Below are positions 2,270-27,551 of a DNA stretch of 64,000 bases, piece after piece (positions within the stretch are counted from its first letter, which is position 1; every line of letters starts with the position of its first letter). The notes below the pieces were generated by a model. The model was not told the DNA's origin and ran no database searches. It was given only the letters and a program-made list of their open reading frames with translations. The position numbers were made by a program, and so were the translations under genes. Source of the stretch: Trichodelitschia bisporula (taxonomy: Eukaryota > Ascomycota > Dothideomycetes > Phaeotrichales > Phaeotrichaceae); the NCBI GenBank assembly GCA_010356995.1, contig ML996694.1:453676-517675 (forward strand), in the 5' to 3' direction.

Positions 2270-5260
2270 CTACTCTTCCATGGCATCACCCGCACCATCC
2301 ACACCTGCCGACTTTTCAGCACTTTTCCCAGTCACGTCCTCCATCGTACCATTTATCTCACTTTCCCTGTGTGAATTCCTCGTCCGCCGAGTTGCCGTCA
2401 TCGGGGTACTCTTAGCGCGGCCCCTGCTTGACGTACGAGGTGTAGTCCCATTCACATGGGCGGGAGTAACCTTGTTGATCCCACTAACTCTGCCTCCACG
2501 GCCAGTTGACGGCCTCCCGCGGCTGCCATACGGACGCCCCGGGCCCTTGCGCTTACTGGCACCAGGAATTGGAGGGAAGACCTCGAACCGTGTCGGCGGA
2601 ATGTCCTGCCCCGGGTACGGAGTGCCGGTGTGAGAACGCCCGTTGCGCTCCGTCCAGTCTGGGAGTAGTGATGGGGTCTGAAGAGGCTGCGGACTGTGGC
2701 CATTGGGTAGCTCTGGGGTTCCATAGGCCATCGCTTCGGAATCAATGGAAGGTTGAGCGGAAAAAGCGGGCTGATCAATAGAGACGCCATTCTCAACTTT
2801 TATACCGTCGCCATCTTCGACGAGGTCCTCGCGCTGAGCAACCGTGTGAAGTTGACCCCCTTCCTCGTAATGCATGGCAAGATCCCGATGCATGACAAAG
2901 GGCGTCCAGATAAGGTAATTGGGGTCGATCTTCGGGTATCCCTTGGCTTCGTGCTTTTCGATGAATCCCTTCATGTACTCGTGGTCGATGCGGAGCGCAT
3001 AGACCTTGGTGTGTGGGTCCATAACCAAGGCTCGAAGACCTTCGAGCGCAGAAACGATGTCGTCGGCCGTCATGCCAGTTTTTTTTGAAATTTCGTTAAT
3101 CGAAATCGGGTTCCGATAGTCCTTTAAAAGATAGCTGAGAACCAGACGCCAGTAGTTCCGGTAGGAAATTAGCCCCATGTCTGAAAGAGGTTTCTCCGGT
3201 GACCCCGTCTTCTGTTCGCGCTTGGTCAGAAGATATGAGAAGTCGATGAGCATGTGCCCAAATCCTCGACGCTGATAGATTGGAAGGACGAGGATGCAGG
3301 AGACGTTGTTGAGACTGCTCGGCCGCTTTTCCTTGGAAAAGTAACCGACGAAATGGCACCCCTGCTCGTCGTTCTCCGTCATGACGTAGAAGAGAAAAGG
3401 TTCAACGTCATAGTACAGCGTCTTCGATCCCAAAAACAACTTCGCCAAAAGGCAAAGATTCTGACAGTAACCCGGGTTCTTGCGGCCATCGACTTCAAAG
3501 AACGAGTACGTGCCATCATGGTAGATTTCCTGGCCGGGAGGCTGCGTGGCCTGGCATTTGAGCTTCCTTCCCGTCAGCTACTGCCTGAAGGCGTGTTTAG
3601 AACTTAACCAACCTTATGCCGCCATGCTACGTAGTCCGAGTTCATGTACTTGAGGCAAAACTCGCAAATATAGAGAATCCGGTTGCGGCTGTACTCCGCA
3701 GGGTATGGAGCCGCATGCCAGATATCAATTTCGAACCCTCCAAAGCTGACGCACTCAAGCTTGCTTCCCGTGCTGGACATCTTCCGGGGTGTCTTGGTCT
3801 TATCGAGGTTTGCAGTCTGGGCCGCAACTTTCTCCTTCCAGGACTGCTCGGCCAAGAGCCGTGTATCCTCAAAAAGCGTTCGATCTTCCCCTGTAGGTTT
3901 CCCAATGTGATTGTCAGCTTCCGCATCAGCAAGTATTCCTCCGTACGGTTTTGATTTGGATTCATCGTCTCGTTCAACCCAGAGCAACGGAGTCCCGAAT
4001 GTGGACGGAATTGCTGGGTAGTGAGGAGGCTCTTGTTCTTGCAGCGGCGGCGCCAGAATCTTCTTGCGCGGACGTGCGCGGCTGGTCTTTTGCTTCTGTT
4101 TGGGTCGAGCCGCCAATATTCTTTGCAATATTTTTGCATTTAGACTGAACCCTAGAACAAGACTACCCGTCGCTTGACGAACGATAAAGCACGGGAATTT
4201 GTTTTGCTTTGCTCCCTTACGTGTGCGTGAAGGTCGCGTCTTTGGCGATAGCTCATCGCTCGCAGCCACCGCAGCCGTGAGAACCGCTTGCGTCGGTAAT
4301 GCCATTACCGGTGATGCCGTTGACACGGGAACGTTTGCTGCTCTCTTCGGTGTTGCTGTTCCGGTTAAAGGGTTTAGTTGTGTACCTGTCTCTTCCAAAT
4401 TCGCCTGACCAGGAATTGCAAGGCCGTTATCCACGCAGTCTTTGCAGCACCATGAGCTGACGTCTTACCACCATTAGCAAATCATACAGTGTTCTTTATC
4501 GTGTCACCTACCGGTATTCTTCAGGGTTCCAGAATCCGCCGCGCAGTGGTAATGAGCTACAAACATAACGGTAAGCTTCTGCACAGCTAAACCCGAGACT
4601 TCCCGAATCTTCCTAGCTTGCAGGGAACTAACCATTGTCACCGCAAATGGCACAGTTGATGAAGGCCGTAGCTTCACCTTCTTCTTCGATTTGGTGGCAA
4701 AAGCTGTACTCGAATTAGCTATGCTAGCGGATGTTCTCCTTGAAATGCGACACTTACATGCAGAAGTTATTGTCCGTGACGGCTCCAGGAGTGGCTCCTT
4801 CCCGAGTGAGAGCTGCCTCTGCATCCTCTCCATCTGCATCTTCCACTTCTGAGTCTTCTATCTCCTCTGCCTCTGCGTCTTCTCCATCCGTATCTTCTCC
4901 AGCCGTGTCGTCGGCGCCCCACTCCTGGGTGTCGGAAGATGATGCCTCGGAGCTGGCGTCGGATATAACATCGGATTCAAGCATTTCAGCGTCCGAGTCT
5001 TGCGACAGGTCGTCTGGGGGTACTGAGATGTATGCTCGTGGAGCTTTGACTTGGTGGGGAATACCGCCCAGATCCTCGTCGTCAACTTCTTCGCCTTCTG
5101 CGTCAACGTCTGAGCCATCGGGGTCAGCATCATAGGATGTGCGATCGAAGCCATTGGTGGCCTCACTCATGGAGACGTCGCCATCGTGCTCCGCATCCAT
5201 GTCGCTATCCGGCATAGTCGTTGATTGCTGGCGTGTATCACTGCTAGGCTCGCCTGCCAT
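2270..5260 (-). CDS. MYST-family histone acetyltransferase, KAT6/Sas3/Mst2 type, with PHD finger
   Basis: Predicted nuclear lysine acetyltransferase using acetyl-CoA on histone H3, the catalytic subunit of a NuA3/Mst2-like complex (family knowledge). Five exons by eye: 5260-4758, 4703-4633, 4556-4508, 4456-3613 and 3562-2270, giving 919 residues. The N terminus is acidic and Ser/Glu/Asp-rich. A C4HC3 PHD finger is split over four exons (FCIFC, CAIC, HYHC, CCKDC). The MYST zinc finger (ICEFC, then RHK-LKC across the last intron) precedes the catalytic core, with the cysteine of SCILVLP, the acetyl-CoA loop QRRGFG and the catalytic glutamate of GSPEKPLSD. The C-terminal tail is basic and probably disordered. 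The reading frame is open upstream to 5482, but the first ATG is at 5260. The PHD finger and the core sequence favour Sas3/Mst2 over Esa1, which carries a chromodomain. It is divergent from the complex I gene to its right. Confidence 0.93.
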
Positions 5261-5983
5261 AGCGAATGTCACAATACCTGCCAACTTGGAGCTGAGGTAC
5301 TCCAGATTTGCGAAGAGGCTGCTGTGTTTCGTAGTTGATGCGCGCGGGTCTTCAAGGCTGGATGCGCGCCGCTGCAGTCGCGTTCCCCCAGCGGGCCAAG
5401 CCCAATCCGCGGCGTTGGATTCGAGAGTTGTGGCCTCGAGGGCAAACAAAGGAGGTATGCACGATTCGGTTCTTGTCGACAAGGCGAAGTGGAAAAAGAG
5501 CAGGGTTTCGGGTTATCGCCAGGTGTTGAGTTTCTAGGTGGGGGGGACGGGGTCTGGCGCGGGACGCGTCAAATGGCCATATGCGCGTCGCTCCGGCGCA
5601 TAAGGTGCCGATGGAAAGGTTGGAAGCGCGGGAATGGTGAAGGTGTTGGAAAATAGGTTGAGATGCTCGGCGTAACTATAATTTACGGGCAGTTGTCGTT
5701 CACGTAACCTCTCCTGCCTCAGTACTGCAAGACGTTCCCCTTCGCTGTGGCGTGGTGGCGGTGCCATGGTCTGACATAAGCAGCTTTGACCAGTCTGCGC
5801 CACATCCTCCCGTTTCCCTCCCCACTAGCCACTGGTCTCGGCGGACTGAAGACCGTCCGCTTCCTTAACGCTTCCGTATCAACATCACCACCGCTAACCT
5901 TCCCTCCACCCCCCCCCCCCCCCAAAACCTTACATTGAGCTCCACCCTCCCTCGTAGCGTACGGCTGACGCCTGGTTCTCACC
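5261..5983. other. Divergent promoter region between KAT6-type gene and complex I subunit gene
   Basis: About 720 bp separates two divergently transcribed starts and should hold both promoters. A run of 15 C lies at 5909-5923, about 60 bp upstream of the complex I ATG. The open frames across it are shadows. I recognise no further gene. Confidence 0.6.
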
Positions 5984-6471
5984 ATGGGTGTTCCTTTTGA
6001 GGCTCTCATCCCCTATGCGATAATGCTCGGCGTTCGTACACCTCGTCCTCCCCACCCCACACGGCCCAAGTCATAACTGACCACCTGGGCTTCAGATGTT
6101 CGGTGTAACGGGCGGTGCTCTCTCTAAGCTTCGCCACATGCAAAATGGAGGGAAGCGGGGCAGGCATTCTGTGGACCAATGGGATAGGGTATACTCTTTT
6201 ACTACAAGCTGCTCGATGGCGTAGCTAACCAAGTCGCAGCAAAGTATTACGTCTGACTTCCATATCGCATGTTTGCACTGATAAGTTGTAGTGATGGAGC
6301 GAGACAAGAGACTGACGGGCTTTCTTCGCGGGCAATCAGACCGGGCAGAGGCCCCGGATGGCTTCGAGCTGAACAATCCGTGGAAGGTATGCGCTCCGTT
6401 CGATAGATACACAGATTTCCACCTCCGTATAGGGCTAATTGAAATTTCAGGTCGAGAAGCGCTTCATGTAA
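5984..6471 (+). CDS. NADH:ubiquinone oxidoreductase MWFE subunit (NDUFA1-like), five exons with a 4-nt microexon
   Basis: Small accessory subunit of mitochondrial complex I with one N-terminal membrane helix. Exons: 5984-6031, 6096-6188, 6240-6243, 6292-6386 and 6451-6471, joining to 86 residues. It begins MGVPFEALIPYAIMLG and continues MFGVTGGALSKLRH, the transmembrane segment, then HSVDQWDRQMMERDKRLTG and FELNNPWKVEKRFM, which match the fungal MWFE pattern I know. Joining exon 2 straight to the MERDKR exon by GT-AG gives an immediate stop. Inserting the four bases CAAA (6240-6243), flanked by AG and GT, restores the frame and gives the family-typical DRQMMERD. A CTAAC branch site lies at 6225-6229, ten bases before the microexon acceptor. 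The gene is divergent from KAT6 and upstream of the Uds1 gene. Confidence 0.88.
6240..6243 (+). other. 4-nucleotide microexon of the complex I MWFE gene
   Basis: The bases CAAA lie between an acceptor (CGCAG, ending 6239) and a donor (GTATTA, from 6244). Flanking introns would be 51 bp (6189-6239) and 48 bp (6244-6291). With phase 0 on the left and two bases needed on the right, CAA plus A/TG encodes Gln-Met, restoring a conserved stretch. This is inferred from frame and family sequence, not from transcripts. Confidence 0.8.
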
Positions 6472-10687: not shown

Positions 10688-11866
10688 CTAAAACATGGAG
10701 CGTTTTGTTCTGCTGAAGGACATATTTGCACGCGCACTTACACCTAGCTTGTGCAGTACGTTCCGCTTCTCCCATACCGAGCTCCGCCCCTCAACCACAG
10801 CAATCATCTCCTCAGCAATGCGCTTCGCGAGCATACCCTTGCCGGAGCCGTGATTGCGCCTCTTCGCCGCCGCATCGATAATCCACCTGATCGCAGCCCG
10901 CCGACGCTGACGTAGGTTAAGCGGCTTAGGAACAGGCAGCGACACACCACCACCAGCAGCGCCCCTCAACTGAACGATACGCATAAGGGGAGCGGCACTG
11001 TCAATGGCCAGAGTGAGGTAGAGCACGGGATTGAGGGGGAGGTGTGAGGGGGGTGGGTGGCCGGGGGCAAGAGGACGGTCTGCACGGAAAACCGGAGGGG
11101 GAGCAGTGCGGAGATGTGCGAGGATGAGGTTTACGTTCTGAGGGTGTTAGACACTGAGTTCGAGGTGAAGGGGTTGGATAGAGGAAGCACGGACCCGCTG
11201 GGCTGTGGCTTTCTTGCCGTGTCGCATCAGCAGCCCAACGACCTGTTGGACTACGGGATGGTAGCGGTAATGCAAGTTGGCATCCGGAGGGAGCGGGAGG
11301 GACGGCAGGCCGAATTTCACACCTGCCGCCTCCATCTCCTTTGCTGAACTGGCGCCCATGGCGGACACGGCGTCAAGCACGGCAGACTCAAGGCCAGTAT
11401 CCGACGAACCCGTAGTTTCCAGTTGCTCTCGCCGGAACGCCGAGGTCGAATATGAACGGGAACCAGTGGGCTTCGCAGCCTTCAATTCGTCCAGCATGAC
11501 CTTTGGCAGGTGCTTCTGCGCTTCTATATCGTCCTTGACGACCTATTTCCGCCACATCAGCATTCAACGGCCGAATAACAGGTTTGGTAAGACACCCACA
11601 TCCTGCACCGGCGTGCCCTGCTCAATATCCGGACCGCCGCGGCCTGTGGCTTTCGCTACGGCGGCTGCCTCCTCACTAATGCTGGGAAGGACATCTGTGC
11701 TGGAACCGTCGGCGGGCTTGGAGGCATTTGAATCGGCGAACTGGCGAAGCGGGGCGAAAGACTGGTCGACGGGGCTCGGTCGGCCAGAGTGCCAGCGGGG
11801 CAATTGGGTTCTGGGACGCAACGGCAAGGCAAAGGCGCACGATGGTGATATGCGTAGACGAGCCAT
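10688..11866 (-). CDS. Mitochondrial small-subunit ribosomal protein uS7m (Rsm7-like)
   Basis: Head protein of the mitochondrial small ribosomal subunit that contacts 16S-type rRNA. Three exons, 11866-11600, 11542-11195 and 11137-10688, encode 354 residues. The N terminus (MARLRISPSCAFALPLRPR) is Arg/Ser/Ala-rich without acidic residues, a mitochondrial presequence. A non-conserved linker follows. The uS7 fold is marked by HYRYHPVVQQVVGLLMRHGK then KATAQR-NVNLIL across the second intron, by VLYLTLAIDSAAPLMRIVQL, and by a basic C-terminal part (RQRRRAAIRWIIDAAAKRR, then GKGMLAKRIAEEMIAVVEG). It is longer than bacterial S7 (about 156 residues) because of the N-terminal extension, as usual for fungal mitochondrial forms. 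It is divergent from the nucleoporin gene. Confidence 0.92.
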
Positions 11867-13031: not shown

Positions 13032-16000
13032 ATGTCGACCTTCGGTGGTGGCGGGTTTGGCAGCGGGGGCTTCGGCTCCAACTCCACCAACACGACTGGC
13101 TTCGGTGGTTTCGGCGCGAATGCCAGCAACACCAACAACGCGACTGCATCAGGTAAGGAATACAGTTCTGCTCTCGTGATTTCCGTTGTCCCGTCCTCGC
13201 TGTCATGCGCTTTTGGAGCGGTCGCGAATCTCAGTTAACCCCGCCTCCGTGCCTCAGGCTTTGGCTCGTCAAATACCGGCTTCGGATCCAACACGAACAC
13301 TGGTGGCGGCTTGTTCGGCAGCTCAACGGGCGGTGGTGGATTTGGCTCTGGAGGTTCGTGGCCCCTGGCGGCGCTGTTTGGTTCTGGAAAATCAGCATGC
13401 GATTCTCGGAACGCCATATTGCGTTTATGTGGATCCTAACCTGTCGTGACTGCAATTTTCCTCTTTCGAACCTGGCTAACGGATACTTTCTCTAGGTTTC
13501 GGCGCACCTGCTGCATCTGGCTCTGGCTTCGGCGGAAACAAAACCGGCTTTGGCACTGCGACCACCTCATCCGGCAGCGTCTTCGGCGGCGGAACTGCCA
13601 CTGCTGGTAGCGGCTTCGGCGGCTTTGGGAGCGGCGGTACGACTTCAACTTTCGGCGGTGGCGCGAACACCAGCAACACTTTCGGTGCTAAGCCTTCTTT
13701 CGGAGCTCCCGCTACGACTGGAGGCGTCTTCGGCAGCGGTGGTACAGCGAGTGGCTTCGGCAACACAACCACCACTGGCACTGGTTTTGGCGCGTCTGCC
13801 AATCCGACATTTGCGGCTTCTCAGCAAACCAATAATGGGACGGGATCTGTCCAGTTCCAGCCACATGTCGATAAGGATCCTGGCACGTCGACCGTCAGCA
13901 ACCATTACCAGACCATCTCGACCATGCCCAACTATCAGGGCTTTTCCCTTGAAGAACTTCGCATTGCAGACTACGCCCAGGGCCGGAAGTTTGGCACTCA
14001 GACTGGGCAAGTGGGCGGTTTCGGAGCCTCCACTGGCTTCGGAGGCGGCTTCGGCAGCACTGCTGCTGCCAATCCTACTTCTGGATTTGGACCCACCCCT
14101 GCAGCAACCAACAACGTATTTGGTGGAGGCACTAATACTGGCAGCGGCTTCGGAACTCAGGCAACCACCAACCCTGGATTCGGAGCCAGCACGACAAGCA
14201 GCGTCTTTGGTGCGCCGAAGCCTGCCGGAACTAGCATCTTCGGAAGTGGTGCGACCACATCTACTCCGGCTACCAACAGTGTTTTCGGCAATGCTGGCAC
14301 AGGTTTCGGTGGTACTACGAACACTACTGGTGGTTTCGGGCAATCAAATACGGGCACCTCGAGCCTTTTCAACAATGCGCCCAAGCCTGCCACCGGTTTC
14401 GCAGGATTTGGCGGTGGTGCTACAAACACGGCCGGCGGCTTCGGATCAAACACAGCGACTGGATTTGGTCAGCCCGCCGCCTCGACGACCAATGGCCTCT
14501 TCGGCAATACTCCGGCCACGAGCGCGACTACCGGCTTCGGCAGTGCCCCTACCGCCACGAGCGGCGGGTTCGGTGGATTCGGACAGAACCCCCAGCAACA
14601 GCCGCAGCAGCAAACTGGCAGCAACGTGTTTGGCGGCTTCGGAGCTGCTAATCCGCAGCAGAAGCCTAGCATCTTCGGCACGGGCACCGCCGCGGGTGGT
14701 ACGTCAGGTGTGTTCGGGAATGCGGGTCAACAGCAGCAGCCGCAGCAGCCTGCCGCATCAGGTCTGTTTAGTTCTACCAACACTCAGGCACAAGGTGGGC
14801 TGTTTGGCAACAAGCCCCAAGGCGCTGGTAGTCTTTTTCCAGCTGCTAACACAGGTGCTTCAGGTGGTGTTTTCGGAAACACGCAGCAGCAGCCTGCTCA
14901 GGGTGGTAGCCTTTTTGGCCCCACTCAGCAGCAGCCAGGCGGCAACGGCCTGTTCGGTCCGAAGCCGACGCTAAATACCGGGTTCTCCATGTTCCCTAAC
15001 CAGAACAACACTCAGCCGCAGCAGGGCTCCAGCATTTTCGGTGGTCAGCAGCAACAACCCCAAGCGAATTCGAGCTTTCTCGGGAACTCGCAGCAATCCC
15101 AGATGCAGCAGAACACTCTCACGGCCTCGATCATGGATAATGCTTATGGTAATCCCCAGTTGTTTGCGAGTCTTGGTTCGCCATCTCAGGCTACTGGCCC
15201 CATCGCTACTCCCTTGTCCGCTAGCCAGAAGAACAAAAAGCCCGCGATTATCCCTCATTATCGCATCAATCCGGCCTCTTCGTCGCGTCTTATCACGCCA
15301 CAGAAGCGTCCTCCGGGATACGGATTTTCTTACTCTACCTATGGAACGCCTGGCAGCGCGGTGAGCAATGCTAGCCCGATCGGATACAACAACAACCTCC
15401 TCGGCGGCAACATGCAGCGCTCTTTGAGCAAGAGTCTCTCCACCAGCAATCTCCGCAACTCGTTCACTGCTGAAGACAGCGTGCTCCTTCCTGGCGCATT
15501 CTCTAACGCCACGAAAGTGAGCGGTACGGGGAGCTTGAAGCGCCTGAACATCAATAAAAACATGCATGTTCGTCGCTCCCTCTTCGGCAATCCAGCCTAC
15601 GAAGAGGCGAATGGTACTTCACTCCGCAAAAAGGTCAGCTTCGACACCACCACCAACGGCAGCAACGAGACCGCTTCGTCCATCGATCAGAATGGCACTA
15701 GCAGTAGTGCCCTTGTGCGTACGGAGAGCCCTGTCCGTGAAATCGACAATGAGCCCGCCTCCGGCTTGGCTACCATTTCCGAGACTCGTGCTACGAACGG
15801 CGATGTTAGGCCAGCGCTTCCCGACCGCGAGGCTCTTCTCACACACCGCGACCAAGAGCCGGGTGCGTACTGGATGAAGCCCAGCAAGCAGGCCATTGAA
15901 AACATGTCCCGTCAGGAGCGCTCCCATGTCCAGAACTTTACCGTTGGTCGCAATGGCTGCGGCCAGATTGTCTTCAGCGAAGTTGACCTCACGAACATCC

Positions 16001-19000
16001 CGCTTGACGACATCTGCGGTAAGATTGCCGTTCTTGAAGTCCGCTCCGCCACAGTCTACGGCGAGGGTAGCCCGGTGCCGAAGCCGCCTGTCGGCAAGGG
16101 CCTCAATGTGCCGTCAACCATCACGCTGGACAACTCGTGGCCTCGTTCTAAAGCCGGCAGGCTCCCTGTACAGGAGAAGAAGGGTGCCCGTTTCGAGAAG
16201 CACATTGAGCGTCTCAAGCGCGTTCCGGACACTGAGTACGTCAACTACGATACGTCCACGGGCCAGTGGACCTTCAAGGTCGAGCATTACACCACGTACG
16301 CTCTCGATTACGACGAGGACGAGAGCATGCTTTCCAACAGCATGTTGAGCCCTCCGCCGGATACCGCCACTCCGGTCAAGGCGACCCCCTCTGCCAATGC
16401 ACAGACTTCTCCAGGTAGCCAAGGCGACATGTCGATGCCTAGCCCGCCGGATTCTAGCTTGGACGACACTTTCGAATTCAAGCGCCCGAAGGGCAAGTTT
16501 GTGCCCGGCCAGTTTGACGGAGAGTCGTACGACGCCGAGTACCAGGAGGATGCAGCTACACCGGAGTCTTTTTTAGATGAGCGCTCCGCGGGTTCGTCTG
16601 AGGCGGATGTGAACGAGGTGGACGTTACTTCCGACGAGGATGAATTGGTCATGGCTCAGGATCAGGAGATGGCAGGCTCCTTTCCGATGCCAGGCCGCAC
16701 CGTGGAGCAGGAGAACGCTTCTGCCGTCCTCATCAATACCGGGTCCCCAACGAAACCTAAGTCGATCCTCAAGCCTACCGGTCTCCGCCCCTTCGGCACT
16801 CCGGTAAAGGCCGGCCAGATTGTTCTCGGGGCCGACTGGACCGAACAACTTCTGCGCACTGCCAGTCCTAAGAAGCAGGATCGGAATGCGCTCCGGGCTG
16901 TCCAGGCGTCAGCGCTGAAGAACAGGGAGGACGACAGGAAGCCTTTGCCCACTCCTAAGGGACCTGCTTTCAACACGAGCATTGATCTCATGAATTCGCT
17001 GTTTGGAAACGCTGGGAAGGGTACGACGCTGCTGCCTACTAAGCAAGGCGCAAAGAAGGGCTTTGAGGTTTGTGTTTAACCCCCTTTGCTTCTTTCTTCA
17101 TTCAGTGAATCGGCGTCATGGGCGTGTACTTAATTTGAGTATATGGGTCGGACATGGACTGTTCGGTCTGGCGTTGTATGTACACAATGGAATTTGATGG
17201 CTAAACTCTTCTTAGTTCCCTTATGCGAAGCGGGCGCGGACAAGCGTCGAAGTCCAAACTATGAACACTATGGAAAAGGAGTTTCACCACACGACGAAGC
17301 CCAGCTGGGGACCAGATGGAGCCCTTGTTCACATCTTTGGGAGTGACGCTCCCAAAATCACCAGGCTCTTCATGCCGCTTGATGTGAGTTGGATCAGAGC
17401 AAGTCGGGGCCCGCGCTAACGGTAAACAGTTGCTGGCGAAGCCTATCATAGTGCAACAGAGGGTGACGGGAATTACCATCGTTGATGATGTTCCCAAGGC
17501 CCTCCCGCCTCGGAACTTCGACTTCAGCGAACTTGCCAACTCGGTCTCATTGGATACCCCAGCTGGCGCATATGAGCACCAGATCTGGCAGCTTGCGAGT
17601 ATCCTTTTCGACAACTTCGACGTTGAGTTTCCTGAGCACCTTACTGTCGCTCAATATACGGAATACGATGACCGCCTGCGCAAGGCTAAGCTCTCCGAGT
17701 TCTGGAAGAAGCTGGTCTGCGATGATGCTATCAAGCAAGTTAACCAGGCCAATTCGTCAGAAGAGATGGCTTTGATGTATCTCTCTGGTGGTATGGTTGT
17801 GAAGGCGTGCAAGGCGCTTGTTGATGGTCGCAACTTCCATCTGGCCACTCTTGTAGCTCAGATCCCCGGTGACGACGTGTTCCGCTCTGCGATCCAATCT
17901 CAGCTGGTGAGCTGGGAGGAAAACAGCACTCTAACTGACATTAGCGACCATACTCGCGCCATCTATGAGCTTCTTGCCGGCAACACCTACTGCAAGCCTC
18001 GGACGACTGGCGGAGCTCAGAGGGTGTCTTCGTTCAACCTCTCCTCCCGCTTCTGCATTGATTGGCGCCGGTCGTTCGGGCTTCGTCTTTGGTATGGCAG
18101 CAAGCCAGACGAAGATGTCAGTGCTGCAGTTGTGCGCATGGAACAGGATACGCAAGCTGGAAATGAAGCAGTCAAGCCAATCCCGTGGTTCATGGAGCAG
18201 AACCCCAATCAGGCCTGGGACAGCGCCGCGCTCGCTTCGCGTGTGGACCTGCTGTGGGGTCTCCTCAAGCTCTACAGCAACCATAACCTCGAGGATCCTG
18301 TGTCGGTGGAGTCTATCGCCACGACAGAGAACACTGCTAGCGACGCCTTGAACTCGCGCCTTGCATTCCAAGTCGCGACGCTTCTCAGCGCCCGTGGATT
18401 TGGTACACCCGACACAGAGGCGGCAATCGATCGTTTGGCAAACAGCTTCTCTGCCTCGCTCAGCACCATCACGCCTCCGGATGGCGAGGCCCTTCGTACT
18501 GCCACCTGGGTGTTGATGCACCTATCATCGGCCCCTATGCGCGCCACCCGCATCAAGGCGCTTCTCGAAACGCGCGCCGACATCCTCGATCCTCCCGCAG
18601 GTCCGTTGTTCGTATCGCTCACGGGTCAGCAAGCCACGAACGGTCTGCCGGACCTGGGTCTCCCTGCGAAGTGGCTCTTTGCGGCGAAGGCGATGCACGC
18701 CCGTGCGGTGCTGCGCGACCCCGTCGCTGAAGCGCGCTTCCTCCTCGACGCGGGTGAGTGGGCGGCAGCACATGATGTTGTCTGCCACACCGTTGGTCCT
18801 GCGGCCGTCATTAGTGAAGATTTTGAACTGTTGCGGAGTGTGCTGCAAGGCCTGAAGAGCGGCCTTGACCTCTCTCCCGAAGGCGCAGATGCTTGGCACT
18901 CCGGCGCAGGGGTGTATATGGACTACGTCGACCTGAAGGACCTGCACGAGGGACGGCACGGACCGATGGAAGGGCGTGTTGCAACGGAAAGCAAACATGT

Positions 19001-23632: not shown

Positions 23633-26600
23633 GCAATCTGGCAACGGCAATGGGGATATCTGGTGGCTGGATAATGCGGGGTTGAAGACGAGTTTGAGGG
23701 TGTGCGTACGTGAGAGATGGGATGGAAGATGGGGGACGGACTGGGAGGATGATGGCGTCTACAGCTGTGACCAGTGATGATGAGGGTGGGGAAGTTTAGG
23801 AAGTGAAGATTGAATGCTCTCTACATCGTACTTGCTTTCCCCCATCTGTCTCCAGTTATGCAGTCGCTCCTTCCTTACGAAGGGGAGTGAGGGGGTGCCT
23901 TCTGAACTTGTCCACGATGCTTTCATCATCATACGTTAAATGGGAAAAATAGGGAAAGAGCAGCCTTGAACCCATGAAGGCTATCGTATAGTGAAGAAAG
24001 GGACGATCAGAGTTTGAATATCAGGCATTGTCATTTCTTTCCTCTTCTATTTTCTTCCCCATCCCTCTTTCTCCCTATTTTGTGCTCTTCTCCTCTTCTT
24101 CCTTGACGGAGGTACATTACGAGTATTGCATCCAGCCATCTTTTCAGCAAGGCATGGCAGCAGCTAGAGTGCAGGGGAGACTAGAGCTCCAGATGTCTGT
24201 TCCTGACAGCCAGGCTGACAGGTTGTTCGGCGGATGACTACCGCGCCTTACTGTAGGAGTTGCTGGTAGCATACAAGCGCAGAGGGCAATACCTACTCGT
24301 AAGTACCGGTAGCGAGCCCTGCTGGAAAAGAAAATGCATGCCTCGGAATTGTCCACTGCAGTACCCGTAGTCAACGGTAAGCATTCGGGTGTCCATGAAA
24401 CTTGGCCATTGACTTCACTTTAACGCGGATGTTGGTGGAACGCAACGGGGAATACTCTACCGTAGTTCTAGGTGGCCAAAGAGGATCGGCGTTAACCTAG
24501 GCGCGCGGTCAGAATTGATCGGTGGTCCAGTTGCGGCTTTGAGGGAGGAAGCACAGGCTCTTTGACGCCATTTGGTCTTTCTTTTTCCCTTTCCCGTTTC
24601 TTTTTCGTGCGGCATTCCGAGCTCGGCATCCGGGTTGCTACCGCTATGATGGTGGGATTTGCGTCGGCGGAGCCTTACCCGGTCTGTAACTCCAGCCTAG
24701 CGCGAGAACTAATCAACCACCACCACATCCTCGTGAGCTTCCTAATGAATCAGCGCCCCCACAGTCGATCTCCCGATTTCGAAACTCAAATCAAGCGGGT
24801 TAGAAAGAGCATGCTGTCATCGAGGTGAGTTCGGACCTACTGCTGTCCCAAGTGCAACTTCTTTGCATCATTCCAGAAGATCTTGCTGCCCAGTGATGCA
24901 CTTCACGCCTACCGTAATACTGCCATGTCGCTCATTTCTGCCGCTATGGCTTTCCGCAAACCTTTCAGTACTGCAGGAGAGTGATCGACCGTGTCAGGTT
25001 TCGATGGCTGCCTGTGTCGTCAGTGTAAGTGCTCTCTTTCACATCTCATTGATCTGGTCCTATTGGTTTGCCCCATTTCTGGTGCATACAATTTTTGAGC
25101 ACTGTGCAAGCACAGGGACGGACATGACCTTACGGTAGCGATAGAAAATACTTCAGCCTAGATACATCCGTACACGTACCGTGCGTATTCTGTACTTCTC
25201 GTTCTTTTGGCTTGACTGCATGCGACCGCTGAAAGATCGACGATCGGGGTAGTGGTCCTTGCTTTACCTCAAGGCGTCAGGGCATTGAGGTTATCCCACC
25301 CACAAGCTCCCTCCTCTCCTCCGACTCCCACGCCTGAGTTGGCGCCCCCATTCGTCTTGCTGGCTACAGTTCAGTACATCCCCAACTGCCAGCACTTTGC
25401 GGCCCACACCTCAACCGCGTTCTGCGCGCCCTCGGCAGGAGGGCCTACCGCTTGCCTTTTGGCTTTCCGGACCCTGCCTCGCATGGGTCCCGTGGACTTC
25501 TCACCCAAGGCAGGTTAGTTGACCATTGGGAGCGATGGTTGCGGCATGGTTTTCGTTGGCGGGAAGTACGCCCTCCCGTTATATTCGCCCACTCTGTCCA
25601 ACGGTGTTATCCGTCTCGTCTACCGTACACATTGGCCTTTGTGATCTTGTTTGACCCGAGGCTTGCCCACTTCCGTCGTCGGTCTGATCTCCGAGGGTGC
25701 AGGATTCCACAGCAGTCAGCGCGCTCTTAGTACCGGGATCAGGACCAGAATTTAACCAATAGACAGTTCGGGATCGAGGTTAGGAAAAGTAGGCAAGATC
25801 TCACCAACCACACCCCTCGCCTATCGCGTTCTTAGCATCGCCAGCTGCCTCGCGTCCAGTCAAAGATGGTCCACCAGGGATACGGATTTTTGTTCGTGCT
25901 GCAGATTCCTGTACCGTGCTGAAAAGGTCGAGTTTCGGGGGTCTCTCGCGTCAAAGTGTGCCTTTCCGCAATTACCCACACTTCGTGGCGGCGATGTGGG
26001 TTGAGGAAGGAAAAGCGCCGCGCTGCGCTGCGCGACAAGACAATAGGGCACAGGTCGTGCAGGCTGCAGCAAAGAAAACACAGGGGGAACAAAGCCGACG
26101 AAGAAGCGTGTACGAAAATCCACCCTGAAGTAAGTCATTTGATTCGACATCTCAGACGTAAGTGGCTCCTTTCCTAATAATTCAGGCCGTAATGGGTGCA
26201 ATTGGCTCCCACCCAGATAGGGTGTCACCCGTCTAGTTCTAATTAGCGAGGCTGTGCACTATCAATGGAGACACGACGACCCAGGCAGCCGGCATGGAGC
26301 AGCGGTAGCCTGTACATGGAAATTTTGGCAACCTCCAGAGAGAGGAATCCCGTCGGTCTCCAGGAGGTAGTGGAGTCGGAGCTCTGGATCTCCAAAACAA
26401 GGATGCGCGCTGGATAATCGGCAAAGACATGTGGATGTGCGTGTGTTGGCTGTAGCCTCGTTCGAAGAAGGTGTTGGTCGAGGTAGAGGGGCACGGAAAC
26501 TAGACTGTCCGGGTTGGTTAACTCCCTCTTGACGTCCAAGCTGCGCTCTCTCGCTGGTCCTNNNNNNNNNNNNNNNNNNNNNNNNNNNNNNNNNNNNNNN

Positions 26601-27551
26601 NNNNNNNNNNNNNNNNNNNNNNNNNNNNNNNNNNCTTGCCGACCCGGCGGAGCCAGGGTCTACAATTCAGTATCTGCAATGCCATGTTGCCGCATTGTCA
26701 CCGCACTTGTCCGGGAATGCTTTGCCCCGTTCATCATTTCCTCTTTGGCGACAGGAACTGTGGGCCCCAAAGAAAGTATCAAAAGTCGGCCATCAGAAAA
26801 AAAAGCCCTGTTCACTTGTGTCTATTAAGACCACGTTACTGGCGAGAAGCCCAAAAGGTCAGACCACTTGTGCCTTCAACGGATGCTTACAGCGTGCCAC
26901 CCCAGCGCTTGGGAGTGTGTGCGGGCGATCGGGAGCGAATGCGCTCTCTGGTGGACGGCGTCCGATGGTTGAAGCCTCCGCGCGGCAATCCCAAAGTTCC
27001 TTTCCGCGCTCAGATCCTTTTGCGCTCTGTCCGGTTCGTGCCGTCTTTCCCTAAACCTGTCGGGAATATCTCCGAGTTGTCCGACGCAGGCTCCTCGTGG
27101 GGCGAAGGAAGAGAGAAACTGAAAAAGTAGATGTGGAAGGGGCCCAACAGAGCGTGGGAAAAAGAAGCGCGGGTGCCTCCCAGGCGGCGTCCTTCGTCGT
27201 GCGACTTGCGGCCAGCGTGTTGCTAGCTCGTTCATTCGGCGAGACAGTTCATTGGCAGTGATGTGCGGATGCAGCTTGATCTCGAACTCGTCACATGACT
27301 GACGAACCTGTTGGCCCTCTTGTCTTTCTCTCCGACTGAAGAAAGAGTGGATGCCCGCGAGCTGACAGATTCTGTGTGTAGTTTGGTCTTCGCTCTCCGG
27401 CTGTGACTAGGCTGGGAAACTCCGTGGTGGTAGCACATCGTCGATCCGATTTCCGACCGTCGTCGTTGTTCGCCCTCCGCCTTTCGGCTCTAGCCGCTCT
27501 CGTGCTTCGCTGTCCAGGTCGGCGACGCATCTCCCCCGCACCGTCGCCAGC
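23633..27551. other. Gene-poor stretch with assembly gap
   Basis: About 3.9 kb upstream of the disordered-protein gene and of the small gene at 27.5 kb. The short frames on both strands have no recognisable sequence. TACCGTA/TACGGTA heptamers lie at 24458, 24910, 25131 and 25621. A gene broken by the N run cannot be ruled out. Confidence 0.45.
26562..26634. other. Assembly gap (73 N)
   Basis: An uninterrupted run of 73 N. The true length and content are unknown. No feature crossing it can be trusted. Confidence 1.

Follow-up and report, generated by a model that had tools for sequence, protein, structure and literature searches.

A constitutive microexon of 4 bp has been described for the human MPC1 gene (PMC9929638). 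Even smaller are the one-nucleotide exon of Fusarium CYP621A, which is reported with RNA-read support and 20 orthologues (PMC12940212), and the constitutive, experimentally tested one-nucleotide exon of Arabidopsis APC11, for which the authors favour intron over exon definition as the more plausible mode, with introns being removed successively (PMC4674806). Larger examples comprise the 20-nt, glucose-dependent microexon of Trichoderma Xlr2 (PMC11121469), the many microexons of Phanerochaete P450 genes, where the shortest exon is given as 6 bp (PMC1184071), and codon-sized microexons of Tuber (cited in PMC3689799). A related arrangement is the stwintron, in which a splice signal of an external intron is split by an internal one, and the entire unit is excised (PMC6616335).

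The window analyzed here, a stretch of 64,000 nucleotides from Trichodelitschia bisporula, contains a gene that probably represents a further instance of this already published kind. By its sequence, this gene codes for MWFE (NDUFA1), an accessory subunit of complex I. We consider it very likely that it is expressed from a five-exon mRNA whose third exon consists, constitutively, of the four bases CAAA, while both flanking introns would be intron-defined and removed in succession. Since exons of four nucleotides (MPC1) and of one nucleotide (APC11 and CYP621A) have already been published, it would be a further instance and not the first, and one base remains the smallest exon size in print. 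With MPC1 the candidate shares its length of four bases, which is not a multiple of three, and its location in a gene for a small mitochondrial protein, although the MPC1 microexon belongs to a human gene (PMC9929638). Like CYP621A, it occurs in a filamentous fungus and was deduced from out-of-phase neighbors within a conserved motif, whereas CYP621A is a P450 gene with an exon of one base (PMC12940212), and the four-base exon of the MWFE gene is proposed from the sequence of a single gene. APC11 differs as a plant gene with a one-base exon and experimental evidence, yet the proposed model, constitutive and with stepwise, intron-defined splicing, is the same (PMC4674806). The Xlr2 microexon is likewise found in a filamentous ascomycete and is not a multiple of three, but comprises 20 nt instead of 4 nt and depends on glucose (PMC11121469). 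As with stwintrons (PMC6616335), a single stretch of a fungal gene would be spliced twice in succession. However, the region 6189-6291 was rejected as a stwintron: its full removal gives an immediate stop, so that, unlike in a stwintron, four coding bases must stay. Our literature search returned no report of a microexon in a fungal NDUFA1 gene, which does not demonstrate its absence from print.

The identification as complex I MWFE, already made in a preliminary description of this DNA, is borne out by both Pfam and PDB comparisons. Translation of the five exons yields a protein of 86 residues (MGVPFEALIPYAIMLGMFGVTGGALSKLRHMQNGGKRGRHSVDQWDRQMMERDKRLTGFLRGQSDRAEAPDGFELNNPWKVEKRFM, followed by a stop codon), which matches a single Pfam family, MWFE (PF15879), with 95.4 bits against a curated cut-off of 27 and over the entire profile (1-55 of 55). 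A phmmer search of PDB sequences up to an E value of 10 gave 15 distinct sequences, every one of them named as the MWFE/NDUFA1 subunit of complex I (NDUFA1, NADH dehydrogenase 1 alpha subcomplex subunit 1, NIMM or MWFE). Chains from solved complex I structures are thus matched directly, the best being 7zm7_D (E 1.7e-35, gapless over residues 1-82), while 6gcs_D gave E 5.7e-23. The source organisms are Chaetomium thermophilum for 7zm7, Yarrowia lipolytica for 6gcs and a mammal for 5gpn. Searches for relatives with the single protein and with an alignment gave 9 and 38 pattern matches in a viral contig collection and 189 and 51 in a prokaryote one, none of which was confirmed by tblastn, as expected for non-fungal collections.

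The gene lies on the forward strand. Exon 1 (5984-6031, MGVPFEALIPYAIMLG), recognized by its protein match, is followed by intron 1 (6032-6095, 64 nt, GTTCGT...CAG) and by exon 2 (6096-6188), which encodes ...DQWDR and ends in phase 0 with TGG GAT AGG. Intron 2 (6189-6239, 51 nt) extends from GTATAC to GCAG, and intron 3 (6244-6291, 48 nt) from GTATTA to GTAG. Between them lies the putative exon 3, CAAA at 6240-6243, which contributes a glutamine codon (CAA) and the first base of a methionine codon (A|TG). Exon 4 (6292-6386) continues with TG ATG GAG CGA GAC and encodes MMERDKRLTG...NNPWK; after intron 4 (6387-6450, 64 nt, GTATGC...CAG), exon 5 (6451-6471) adds VEKRFM and the stop codon TAA. 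All four introns are of the GT-AG type, and each contains a CTRAY motif, a fungal branch motif, 9-14 nt from its end: CTGAC at 14 nt in intron 1, CTAAC at 10 nt in intron 2, CTGAT at 9 nt in intron 3 and CTAAT at 11 nt in intron 4. Intron 3 has an additional CTGAC 34 nt from its end. Ahead of the start codon, a non-coding run of 15 C occupies 5909-5923, where sequencing length errors are likely.

At the level of sequence, the preliminary observation of a four-base exon is confirmed. Its coordinates are exact, the dinucleotides AG (6238-6239) and GT (6244-6245) border it, both introns of normal size were recovered, and the CTAAC motif is located ten bases before the first acceptor as had been described. 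That description named CTAAC alone, while intron 3 has a branch-like motif as well. Since splice and branch signals are present in both introns, the four bases appear as a microexon flanked by two complete-looking introns and not as a stray AG...GT within a single one. The exon is also required to keep a conserved protein in frame: skipping it leads to TGA, whereas its inclusion gives WDRQMMERD and thus the DRQMMERD that had been called typical of the family.

This fit to the family was examined in an alignment of the window protein with segments of 7zm7_D, 6gcs_D and 5gpn_Ac, three of the 15 PDB matches. The microexon region is ungapped, with WDR-QM-MERD in the window protein and WDK-QQ-MERD, WDS-QM-MERD and YQW-NL-MERD in the relatives; hence, two residues separate the position of R47 from MERD in all four rows (QM, QQ, QM and NL). 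The codon provided by the microexon corresponds to Q in the window protein, 7zm7_D and 6gcs_D and to N in 5gpn_Ac, while M50 and E51 are invariant among the four rows. The sole inner gap, one residue inserted in 6gcs_D, is found further downstream. Chain 9iho_a shows YF-AVRD against QM-MERD of the window, at equal length, and thus Q48 and M50-E51 are not universal. For 6x89_A1, 7a23_V and 7ar7_a, the match spans one residue fewer in the chain than in the query, which implies a gap somewhere along it.

To compare gene models, the start of exon 2 and the end of exon 4 were fixed and all single GT-AG or GC-AG introns and all pairs of GT-AG introns were enumerated, with introns of at least 36 nt, a middle exon of 1-59 nt and acceptors up to 6329. 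This resulted in 204 open in-frame models, of which 167 contain two introns and 37 a single one. The CAAA model has the highest summed BLOSUM62 score of all (306 and 218, compared to 294 and 207 for the runner-up), and among the 15 models listed it also leads for each reference taken singly. Of six models scored against the Pfam MWFE profile, it obtained 95.4 bits, compared to 87.3, 86.6, 83.4, 84.9 and 71.3 bits for ranks 2, 3, 4, 6 and 11. The model thus gives a gapless protein of family length, the best among those enumerated. The top four one-intron models use GC donors and bring in foreign residues; GC-AG single introns with donors at 6208 and 6211 were rejected for such added residues and for their lower rank among the 204; the one with the 6208 donor was also among the six models scored with Pfam.

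How often such an exon arises by chance was estimated from shuffled sequences in two tests, both of which were devised after the sequence had been seen. For the first, 91 inner bases of the 103 were shuffled 20,000 times with dinucleotides preserved. With introns of at least 40 nt, an open, frame-restoring AG-N(1-30)-GT was present in 25.4% of the shuffles, a frame-restoring exon of 4 nt in 7.0% and a 4-nt exon coding for QM in 0.13%, while a QM-coding 4-nt exon with a branch motif in both introns occurred once (1/20,000). The second test (50,000 shuffles) scored the encoded residues against the columns of the three relatives, with the score of QM as threshold. With a minimum intron of 40 nt, this threshold was reached in 59/50,000 shuffles and, with both branch motifs, in 2/50,000; with a minimum of 30 nt, the corresponding counts were 120/50,000 and 4/50,000. 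Since open exons of four bases are not rare in shuffles (about 7%), the AG-N4-GT pattern alone is weak proof. It is the fit to the protein family, together with the branch motifs, that gives the exon its weight.

With regard to splicing, introns 2 and 3 would each be recognized across themselves, from the 5' and 3' sites and the branch motif of the respective intron, and would be spliced out one after another. A stepwise removal is proposed, as splice sites separated by four bases leave no room for two spliceosomes at once. The preliminary description had raised the concern that exons this small are hard to define. For this exon the concern may carry less weight, since the introns on either side have the short length typical of intron-defined splicing and the exon itself would then not have to be defined. 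The 5' site downstream of the exon (AAA|GTATTA) is weak beyond GTAT, as judged against the fungal consensus. Skipping of CAAA would create a stop (AGG TGA) that lies upstream of a remaining exon junction, and leave only a 47-residue fragment. The splicing itself, the order of removal, the constitutive inclusion and the uselessness of the skipped product are what we infer here from sequence. If correct, four bases enclosed by introns of about 50 nt each would provide a clean natural substrate to study the ordering of adjacent intron removals. A common origin of introns 2 and 3 by tandem duplication was rejected, as their similarity score was reached by 733 of 1000 shuffled pairs.

Alternatively, the microexon might act as an on/off switch, with a condition-dependent inclusion and a stop upon skipping that would tune the assembly of complex I, and possibly be conserved in a fungal lineage. 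We regard such a role as very unlikely.

Instead of a microexon, a single GT-AG intron at 6189-6299 might be removed, leading to an 82-residue protein without QMME (DRRDKRLTG). The preliminary description had stated that a direct join produces a stop, which is right for the acceptor at 6291 (AGG|TGA) but does not apply to the one at 6299, which is in frame. This 111-nt intron has canonical dinucleotides and, of the GT-AG introns within the 37 one-intron models, it ranks highest. Nevertheless, we consider it highly improbable that it is the intron used: it costs four residues where the four aligned rows are ungapped, among them M50 and E51, which are invariant in these rows although not conserved in chain 9iho_a. 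The Pfam score decreases from 95.4 to 71.3 bits, and the intron is longer than intron 1 and intron 4 of this gene (64 nt each). A transcript in which GATAGG is spliced to CAAATGATGGAG would be incompatible with it. Since the acceptor at 6299 is in frame, a gene finder without a microexon option could pick this intron and deliver a plausible but shortened protein. With the microexon model, a small fungal housekeeping gene gains a probable 4-nt coding exon, at which automatic annotation may either break down or lose four residues. The GAG acceptor itself (6297-6299) is a candidate for a minor isoform, or for an automatic annotation, of MWFE without QMME.

That the small exon comprises 10 nt (6234-6243, TCGCAGCAAA) and starts behind an AAG acceptor at 6231-6233 appears hardly credible. 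This model is open, in frame and second of the 204, with 87.3 Pfam bits, but it introduces two residues (DRSQQMMERD) that are absent from all three aligned relatives, and its acceptor is located just 4 nt past CTAAC, while the CAG acceptor follows 6 nt further on. An error in sequencing or assembly, or decay of the gene, might mimic the need for the CAAA exon, as a single sequence of the locus is at hand, but the probability of this is close to negligible, given that the remaining exons are intact and gapless to 7zm7_D over residues 1-82, one lost base could not provide two family-typical residues, splice and branch signals flank CAAA on both sides and the sole N run of the window (26562-26634, 73 bases) is far from the gene.

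The sizes of introns 2 and 3 (51 and 48 nt) can be compared with a neighboring gene. On the reverse strand, two ORFs at 2270-4464 represent a gene for a MYST-family histone acetyltransferase (zf-MYST 58.8 bits, MOZ_SAS 261 bits), and two GT-AG junctions are possible between them, of 35 nt and of 50 nt (3563-3612). The latter is preferred since it yields RHKLKC, the form of the MYST family; thus, the ORFs are probably joined by the 50-nt intron 3563-3612, similar in size to introns 2 and 3 of the MWFE gene. A further upstream ORF (4754-5512, reverse strand) may be the 5' part of the MYST gene. The MYST junction and the two 64-nt introns (1 and 4) of the MWFE gene suggest, from a very small sample, a usual intron size of about 50-64 nt here, compared to which 103 or 111 nt would be long. 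An intron census of the whole window by codon bias (three clusters; nine sites) was discarded as unreliable, as none of the four MWFE introns was among its sites. A 128-nt MYST intron that it proposed was unsupported by the junction test, and the ORF following its 57-nt site at 11543-11599 (reverse strand) has no Pfam match.

Two further ORFs of the window, both on the forward strand, deserve mention. The long ORF at 7560-10220 matches Uds1 (up-regulated during septation) and DUF7801. The ORF at 13480-17079 encodes 1199 residues that are, by eye, rich in FG repeats, and presumably resembles a nucleoporin of the Nup98/Nup145 kind.
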